Shown one piece after another: positions 4,486-5,999 of a stretch of DNA of 64,000 nt. The stretch comes from [Mycobacterium] zoologicum (GTDB taxonomy: Bacteria > Actinomycetota > Actinomycetes > Mycobacteriales > Mycobacteriaceae). Position 1 is the first letter of the stretch, and each line of letters starts with the position of its first letter. Both the position numbers and the translations under genes were made by a program. The stretch covers positions 3,924,711 through 3,988,710 of the forward strand of contig NZ_CP083985.1 in NCBI RefSeq assembly GCF_020172665.1. The letters are read 5' to 3'. The notes under the pieces are model-generated. The model was not told where the DNA came from. It saw nothing but the letters and a program-made list of their open reading frames with translations, and searched no databases.

Positions 4486-4500
4486 TGAAAATGACTTTCA
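4486..4500. promoter_or_regulatory. Zur-box-like palindrome before the PPE gene
   Basis: TGAAAATGACTTTCA is a 7-1-7 imperfect palindrome with one mismatch between arms. It differs by one base from TGAAAATGATTTTCA, the form described for actinobacterial zinc-uptake regulator (Zur) sites. It ends 20 bp before the PPE start codon, where a repressor would block RNA polymerase. Assignment to Zur is inference; it is supported by the His/Asp-rich stretch of the protein downstream. Confidence 0.6.
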
Positions 4501-4520
4501 TCTTCGATATGGTGTGCGCC

Positions 4521-5999
4521 ATGACCGCGCCGGTGTGGATGGCCTCTCCCCCAGAGGTGCATTCGGCGGCGCTGAGCACCGGCCCGGGGCCGGGGCCGCT
4601 GCTGTCGGCTGCCGCCGCGTGGTCGTCGCTGAGCCTGGAGTACACCGCGACCGCAGAGGCGTTGCGGGAATTGCTGGGGGCCACCCAGGCGGCGGCCTGG
4701 CAGGGCCCCAGCGCCGAGAGTTATCTCGCCGCGCATCTGCCCTATCTGGCCTGGTTGGCGACGGCCAGCGCTGACAGTGCCGCGCACGCGTCCCAGCACG
4801 AGACGGCGGCCGCGGCCTACGTCAGCGCGTTGGCGGTCATGCCCACCATGCCGGAATTGGCGGCCAACCATGCGGTCCACGGCGTACTGGTGGCGACCAA
4901 TTTCTTCGGCATCAACACCATCCCGATCGCGCTCAACGAGGCCGACTACGTACGGATGTGGATCCAGGCCGCCACCGCCATGGCGAGCTATGAGGCCGTC
5001 TCCGGCGCGGCGGTGGCATCCGCCCCGCAACCCGCCGCGGCACCACCGATCGTCAACCATGACGAGGCCGATCACGATGACCACGACGGTCATGACCACG
5101 GCCACGATGACGACGGGATCCACGACGGCGATCTGGAGCCGACCGATCCGGAGTGGTGGAAGGACGTCTTCGGCGAGATGGGCGAGTGGACCCAGCTCAT
5201 CATCAACGACCTGCTGACCAATCCGGCCGCACTGCTGACCGATCTCCCGGTCGTCATGGCCGACCTGACCTTCCACGCCAGCCAGCTCGCCGCCACCTTG
5301 AGCCAATTCGCTCCCGCGCTGCTTCAGCCGGCACTTGCCCTGGCGATCGGAAATCTGGGTTGGGCAGCGGGCTTGGCCGGGCTGGCCGGAATTCAGCCCG
5401 CCCCACCCGCACTCGTCTCCGGGGGCGCGGTCCCGGCGGAACCCGTGGCCGCACCGGGCTCGGCCGGCACGTCCGCGCCCGTTGCGAACACCACGACGGC
5501 ACCGACCACCGCGCCTTCGGCGGCATCGGCACCGGCCTCCAGCGCCGCACCTGCCTCGGCCCCGCCCGCTGCTCCACCGGCCGGCTCAAGCCCGGCGTTC
5601 TTCCCGCCTTACGTGATCGGGCCCACCGGCACCGCCGGCCAGATCGGTGCCGTGGCCCGCAGTCGCGCGGCGAAGAAGGCATCGAATCCGGATGTGGCGG
5701 CCGAGGCGACGGCCGCTGCTGCGGCCGCGACTGCACGGGATCGGTCCCGGGCCCGGCGGCGCCTCGCCGCCCGCGGGCACGCGGACGAGGTCGTCTACGT
5801 CTACGCCGACAACACCCCCGGACCCGATACCTCGCCCCGCGCTTCTGCCGCCACCGCGGGTGGCCTGGGATTCCGGGGAGCGCACGCCCAGCCGGGTATG
5901 CCCGTGACGGGGTTGACGACGTTGGCGGCCGGCGGATTCGGTGGTGGGCCGACGGTTCCACTGCTGCCCGAGAGTTGGGGCGAGGGCGCCGGCGACTGA
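4521..5999 (+). CDS. PPE family protein with His/Asp-rich insert, possible zinc binder
   Basis: 492 residues from ATG 4521 (MTAPVWMASPPEVHSA, the usual start of this PPE subclass; in-frame TTG 4485 and ATG 4491 would overlap the Zur-like box). The N-terminal ~165 residues are a PPE helical domain with the PPEVHS motif near the start. Residues ~180-204 form a run with seven histidines and about eleven aspartates (NHDEADHDDHDGHDHGHDDD), which looks able to bind metal. Next come a helical/hydrophobic region (LLTDLPVVMADL...), a long Ala/Pro-rich linker, and a C-terminal GGLGFRGAHA...GGFGGGPTVPLLPE type ending. PPE proteins are exported by type VII secretion and often bind a PE partner; no PE gene is adjacent. 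The position corresponds to PPE63 in M. tuberculosis, but this protein lacks the PE-PPE hydrolase domain, which is encoded by the next gene instead. Confidence 0.85.
   Translation: MTAPVWMASPPEVHSAALSTGPGPGPLLSAAAAWSSLSLEYTATAEALRELLGATQAAAWQGPSAESYLAAHLPYLAWLATASADSAAHASQHETAAAAYVSALAVMPTMPELAANHAVHGVLVATNFFGINTIPIALNEADYVRMWIQAATAMASYEAVSGAAVASAPQPAAAPPIVNHDEADHDDHDGHDHGHDDDGIHDGDLEPTDPEWWKDVFGEMGEWTQLIINDLLTNPAALLTDLPVVMADLTFHASQLAATLSQFAPALLQPALALAIGNLGWAAGLAGLAGIQPAPPALVSGGAVPAEPVAAPGSAGTSAPVANTTTAPTTAPSAASAPASSAAPASAPPAAPPAGSSPAFFPPYVIGPTGTAGQIGAVARSRAAKKASNPDVAAEATAAAAAATARDRSRARRRLAARGHADEVVYVYADNTPGPDTSPRASAATAGGLGFRGAHAQPGMPVTGLTTLAAGGFGGGPTVPLLPESWGEGAGD

Follow-up and report, generated by a model that had tools for sequence, protein, structure and literature searches.

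A Zur-type operator paired with a His/Asp-rich loop in a PPE gene of [Mycobacterium] zoologicum: a probable component of mycobacterial zinc acquisition

We have analyzed a 64,000-nucleotide stretch of the [Mycobacterium] zoologicum genome (assembly GCF_020172665.1, contig NZ_CP083985.1, forward-strand positions 3,924,711 to 3,988,710; hereafter the window, with coordinates counted from its first letter), and in particular a PPE gene that lies directly behind a predicted operator for the repressor Zur. The gene, called from its open reading frame (ORF) and its Pfam domains, runs on the forward strand from an ATG at 4521 to a stop at 5999 and encodes 492 amino acids, in a host genome of 4.43 Mb whose nearest group is Mycolicibacter. 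Its product belongs to the PPE-PPW subfamily of the PPE family, with PF00823 at the N-terminus (residues 6–168, 203.6 bits) and PF18878 (PPE-PPW) at the C-terminus (residues 440–486, 41.5 bits), both above cut-off. Between these domains, the PPE domain (4521..5024, to residue 168) is followed by a His/Asp-rich linker at residues 180–204 (5058..5132) and by a post-linker segment at residues 205–293 (5133..5399), all on the forward strand.

The putative operator, TGAAAATGACTTTCA, occupies 15 bp at 4486–4500, is near-palindromic and therefore assigned to both strands, and was recognized by pattern and matrix matches; its 3′ end lies 20 bp from the ATG, as the first-pass annotation of this DNA had stated. 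It is the sole such site in the 64 kb at up to 3 mismatches, with 0.10 expected by chance, and the 24-base published mycobacterial Zur consensus (PMC7174638, PMC4298942) likewise has one fit in the window, at 4480–4503 with 3 mismatches, against 0.01 expected. A 15-column Zur matrix, for which other genomes supplied 15 smtB-zur sites (30 smtB loci were used as input, of which 16 had a site at up to 2 mismatches within 100 bp, our own being excluded) gives the window box 20.8 bits. The box is flanked by two genes of the same strand, of which it faces only the PPE gene, and it coincides with a predicted forward-strand promoter at 4485..4513 (TTGAAA-17-TATGGT), which is the sole promoter-like site in 4420–6120 (the mean for shuffled sequence was 0.0): it covers the −35 hexamer from the second base onward and 10 bases of the 17-base spacer. 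The −10 hexamer ends only 7 bases short of the ATG, which predicts an mRNA with almost no leader. Of 11 Mycolicibacter-type rows, the window included, 10 have a TANNNT hexamer at a distance of 22 bases from the start of the box (23 bases in L256). The letters of the box vary among lineages, and it remains palindrome-like.

The linker holds 7 His and 11 Asp, which bears out the seven His and roughly eleven Asp initially reported at about residues 180–204, and this composition is rare in shuffled protein: 7 His in 26 residues was reached in 8 of 20,000 shuffles, and 18 His plus Asp in none of 20,000. In a structure model of low overall confidence, with a mean predicted local distance difference test score (pLDDT) of 64, the PPE helices extend to residue 166 and further helices span residues 210–288, with no secondary structure for residues 167–209, which contain the linker. 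The His count of this loop varies among relatives, up to 15 per 30 amino acids; in the post-linker segment, W212, E219, D248 and H252 are invariant across 58 aligned sequences. A search with the predicted model found no solved structure matching beyond the PPE domain at E ≤ 0.001. Within that domain, the closest solved relative is the ESX-3 substrate PPE4 (PE5-PPE4-EspG3, PDB 6uuj), with 68–69% identity over 163 aligned columns and 239 bits, compared to 42% and 97 bits for PPE15 and 30% and 67 bits for PPE41; the domain is thus of the EspG3-bound PPE4 type, a statement of similarity and not of secretion. PPE4 differs from the window protein in that its solved chain (178 residues) stops before the loop position, in being linked to iron and mycobactin, and in having a PE partner. 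The product had been described as zincophore-like, and this nearest relationship suggests instead a protein bound to the envelope, not a free secreted zincophore.

Boxes of the same kind occur elsewhere in this genome. The pattern TGAAAANNNTTTTCA matches 28 places at up to 2 mismatches, compared to 4 for a reversed control pattern, and 5 sites at up to 1 mismatch, four of which stand before the ESX-3 eccA gene, the smtB-zur pair, a second PPE gene and the window PPE gene, with the fifth inside a called ORF at 556390. The first of these occupies the space ahead of eccA in an ESX locus, where both EccA and EccB were confirmed and which, judging by its neighbors, we take to be ESX-3. The second box begins 35 bp ahead of the smtB match, with a Fur-family gene next to it and glyS beside; the pair comprises ArsR- and FUR-family genes, the latter a predicted zur, such that the genome would possess a boxed Zur/SmtB pair of its own as well as a box in the promoter of the window PPE gene. 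Of the genome's PPE proteins, in which 35 PPE domains were found, that of the window alone is His-rich (7 His per 30 amino acids, the next best having 4), and a box (up to 2 mismatches, within 300 bp upstream of the domain) precedes only the window gene and the second PPE gene, L129, the next best having 3 mismatches. This second gene (L129/L144), also of PPE-PPW type, has its box at G000:C1:2538053-2538067 (L144:5054-5068), lies near a transketolase-like gene and is without a His-rich stretch. A further box-like palindrome, TGAAAGTGAATTTCA, is found within a called ORF near a transposase-like gene (G000:C1:4223614-4223628).

The pairing of box and linker was followed in two sets of loci. In the first, comprising the best 80 of 377 loci from a scan of genome contigs, a locus was counted as His-rich when positions 151–260 contained 5 or more His per 30 residues, and the box was sought within 250 bp of the PPE motif. 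On these terms, 23 of the 24 His-rich loci have a box, as do 5 of the 56 others (L041, L062, L066, L075 and L080); the Fisher value of 3e-14 is descriptive only, because these loci are kin. The second set was obtained by searching 198 mycobacterial genomes with residues 205–293 alone, a probe that lies outside both tested features. This gave 37 matches in 35 genomes, our own included, with one match per genome in 33 of the 35 (G200 also has a linker-less relative, and G099 a 45-residue fragment at a contig end, G099:C133); leaving out our own locus and this fragment, 35 loci remained. A His/Asp linker, here defined by 5 or more His per 30 residues within positions 151–275, is present in 33 of the 35, and 30 of these 33 have a box within 250 bp; a search for His-rich PPE inserts with an upstream Zur box had been suggested with the first-pass annotation. 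In the remaining three loci (G115, G137 and G092), TGAAAATCATGTTCA stands 384, 2713 and 2687 bp upstream, respectively, directly before a PE gene (identified by PF00934 in G115 and G137 and by reading in G092). Both linker-less loci, G200b and G095, are also boxed, at −248 and −249. Among homologs listed in database searches, at least 5 His per 30 residues was seen in 89 of 120 (the best 120 of 4799) and in 38 of 117 in a further list (the best 120 of 5181).

Two side observations touch on this set. In G137 and G092 (L270 and L272), the His/Asp PPE gene is the last of a PE-PPE-esx-esx-PPE run with the box at its head, which ties it to a pair of Esx genes; both small genes of the G137 run match WXG100. 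In G090, locus L208 has a minus-strand ORF (1264–2004) behind a box at about 1878–1892 on the same strand, encoding a small, possibly exported protein with a second half rich in His, Asp and Gly, which looks like a separate zinc-binding protein.

The subfamily occupies seven chromosomal settings, and we conclude from their diversity that gene and operator stay together. In Mycolicibacter, the gene lies among sterol genes; in the fortuitum group, it follows a short-chain dehydrogenase gene; in Mycolicibacillus, it is beside a 2-oxoacid dehydrogenase acyltransferase gene; in Mycobacteroides-like genomes, it comes after an alpha/beta hydrolase gene; in G224-type genomes, it is placed between acetyltransferase-like and NADH-dehydrogenase-like genes; in G137 and G092, it belongs to the run described above; and in G115, it is near a transketolase gene. 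An eighth boxed His/Asp PPE gene, L029, is of PPE3 type and stands, by reading, before an eccA-like gene. In the window, the same-strand genes 5′ of the PPE gene encode a 3-oxosteroid 1-dehydrogenase and a MaoC-type hydratase (3561..4421, forward strand; presumably hsd4B-like). The downstream neighbor (6008..7684, reverse strand) is convergent, has a PE-PPE hydrolase domain by Pfam and is not controlled by the box; its product has a signal peptide by eye and no Pfam PE or PPE domain. The first-pass annotation had placed the protein in the sterol locus, and among the loci examined this position is confined to Mycolicibacter-type genomes. A link to sterol degradation was rejected as incidental, with other lineages carrying the gene elsewhere and the box facing the PPE gene alone.

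Parts of this picture are already in print, in reports of which excerpts were available to us. In M. abscessus, MAB_0809c is described as a "conserved hypothetical PPE family protein" of unknown function with a zur box, and its expression falls by 5.77 and 4.66 log2 units under a zinc-carrying compound (PMC8951752); it has also been inferred to be a Zur target (PMC6734328). As a zur-boxed, zinc-repressed PPE gene it resembles the window gene, of which it is very probably the ortholog: the subfamily includes an M. abscessus PPE protein with the His/Asp linker, P0119, and we equate MAB_0809c with it on the basis that a single such boxed gene was found per Mycobacteroides-like genome. The available text of both reports (PMC8951752, PMC6734328) makes no mention of a His/Asp stretch. 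More distantly related is PPE3 (Rv0280; P0153) of M. tuberculosis, which shares the PPE and PPE-PPW domains and carries a short DDDHDHDHDH at the position of the window loop, and which differs in the shorter stretch and in the segment that follows it. PPE3, we assume, adjoins ESX-3. Zur shifts rv0280/PPE3 promoter DNA (PMC7863910), and PPE3 has been named as a member of the Zur regulon under selection (PMC13284343). MAP3737, a PPE protein likened to Rv0280, bears a Zur-box mark and is 75.65-fold up under TPEN (PMC4298942), and by this description is a further Zur-linked PPE protein. For the probable ortholog MAB_0809c and for PPE3, a relative, Zur control is therefore, as far as these excerpts go, already described, and the earlier view of a His-rich PPE under Zur as undescribed holds for the His/Asp stretch itself, on which no report was found in the literature searched (most subscription papers lay outside that search).

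As to zinc import, neither a ZnuA (PF01297) nor a ZIP (PF02535) match was found in our own genome, these being the importer families searched. Both are zinc transporters with flexible His/Asp-rich loops, in which they resemble the proposed zinc-related window protein, of a fold and location unrelated to PPE proteins. ZnuA is missing in 26 of the 198 genomes, and a window-type His/Asp PPE, present in 34 of the 198, occurs in 16 of the 26 without ZnuA and in 18 of the 172 with it, a numerically strong association in which Mycolicibacter weighs heavily, kinship is uncorrected and PPE3-type proteins are outside the count. It nevertheless raises the question of the zinc import route in Mycolicibacter.

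Taking these observations together, the PPE gene is almost certainly repressed by Zur, as first proposed and as is now strongly supported by conservation, by the own-genome controls and by the published expression of the probable ortholog. The His/Asp loop very likely binds zinc; that it is a metal-binding segment, as proposed, finds good support in its own composition and in its association with the box. The presence of this pairing in many mycobacteria at different positions indicates that it is probably part of zinc acquisition, and the best single reading, to which we assign a probability of about two in three, is that of a Zur-repressed, ESX-exported, zinc-capturing PPE protein that would act at the envelope in the acquisition of zinc. 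The operator, its overlap with the promoter, the loop and their steady pairing are what sequence and conservation support most directly, and ESX-3 is the most likely export route. Under zinc sufficiency, zinc-loaded Zur would sit on the box over the −35 region and keep the gene off, and under zinc starvation its transcription would yield a nearly leaderless mRNA. The product, a PPE protein like PPE4 and PPE3, would be carried to the cell envelope by type VII export, most likely through ESX-3, which in this genome also follows a Zur box; at the envelope, the 7 His and 11 Asp of its loop would bind zinc outside the cytoplasm, and the bound zinc would be delivered to or across the mycomembrane with help from the PPE protein.

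Several points weigh against this reading. The TANNNT hexamer at the 22-base distance is absent in 14 of 15 rows from lineages other than Mycolicibacter, the 7-bit matrix cut was picked after the scores were known, and among the His-rich loci of the first set, L043 lacks a box in the 250 bp searched. The genes are kin, such that the counts are not independent and the pairing may have a single origin: on a PPE-domain tree of 90 rows, the group with box and stretch takes 4 changes, only 1 of which is forced by the starred branches. PPE genes that lack the stretch can be boxed too (L129 in our own genome, the five loci of the first set named above, and G095 and G200b), showing that the box does not require the stretch. 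DHDHDH runs also occur in other mycobacterial proteins; a His/Asp DNA pattern that was tried as a family probe was dropped, as of the 30 loci fetched, 27 were readable (3 being cut by contig ends) and only 1 of these held a PPE gene. PPE3, with 4 His per 30 residues, falls under the cut of 5, and the probable orthology of MAB_0809c was reasoned from gene counts in the Mycobacteroides-like genomes. Finally, the window PPE gene has no adjoining PE gene (by Pfam, neither neighbor has a PE domain), so the adjacent PE partner looked for in an ESX-3 substrate is lacking.

We also considered explanations that would dispense with zinc capture for uptake. That the palindrome is a chance match, or the site of another regulator, is extremely improbable: matrix matches do occur in 2.4–4% of control windows (166 of 4000 random windows of the fetched loci, some of which have real boxes, and 51 of 2086 shuffled upstream regions), but a box of the same kind as the smtB-zur and ESX-3 boxes of this genome recurs in seven settings, and in 30 of 33 loci where about 4% would be expected. 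A chance palindrome was rejected on these grounds, together with the own-genome controls and the single consensus fit in the window. It is very unlikely that the box is functional and the His/Asp run a neutral low-complexity expansion. The length of the run does vary between close relatives, and L129 and other genes are boxed without it; however, the run holds one position in the protein in 33 of the 35 subfamily loci, and is also found in several PPE3-type proteins with a different following segment. An exported loop might also store surface zinc, or compete with host zinc-binding proteins, with no transport. The predicted lack of structure and the variable His count of the loop would suit such a flexible chelating tail, whereas the four invariant residues, and the helices that follow the loop, point to something beyond a tail, and many carriers of the His/Asp PPE are environmental species; we regard this buffer or decoy role as distinctly unlikely.

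A further possibility is that the protein helps to take up a small molecule loaded with zinc or iron, with the loop only receiving or buffering the metal. PPE4, which is the nearest solved relative, serves mycobactin uptake, and PPE1 is proposed to serve a copper chalkophore. In keeping with such a role, ppe3 mutants have lower fitness with mycobactin (PMC7058343), a putative Zn-siderophore operon is co-repressed with MAB_0809c in M. abscessus (PMC8951752), and PPE1, encoded beside its nonribosomal peptide synthetase (NRPS), is required for growth under copper starvation (PMC9600254). PPE1 resembles the window protein as a PPE protein of metal acquisition that is induced by metal starvation, and differs in responding to copper and not to zinc alone (PMC9600254). 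Against this, the window promoter has a Zur-type box, and no NRPS or metallophore gene was recognized by eye in the surrounding ORFs, where no domain search was made; we consider a metallophore helper unlikely. It is, together with the zinc buffer, the chief rival of the zinc-acquisition reading.

The reading as a zinc-capturing PPE protein could be extended, tentatively, to a dedicated zinc-uptake branch of PPE proteins, that is, ESX-3-exported mycomembrane components in which zinc is caught by the loop and passed to an inner-membrane route distinct from ZnuABC; such components might be the main Zur-controlled entry in ZnuA-less lineages such as Mycolicibacter, with PPE3 a reduced member. A zinc-related PPE protein would add a variant to the PPE proteins already linked to metals and nutrients, and not a separate kind. 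A 2026 paper describes the passage of zinc across the mycobacterial outer membrane as "so far unexplored" and proposes the accessory porin MspD for this role in M. smegmatis (PMC13098993). A PPE protein that is switched by Zur and carries its own zinc ligand, present in several lineages and in short form in PPE3, would be a second candidate besides MspD and, if this is true, would explain the shared Zur control of ESX-3 and several PPE genes.
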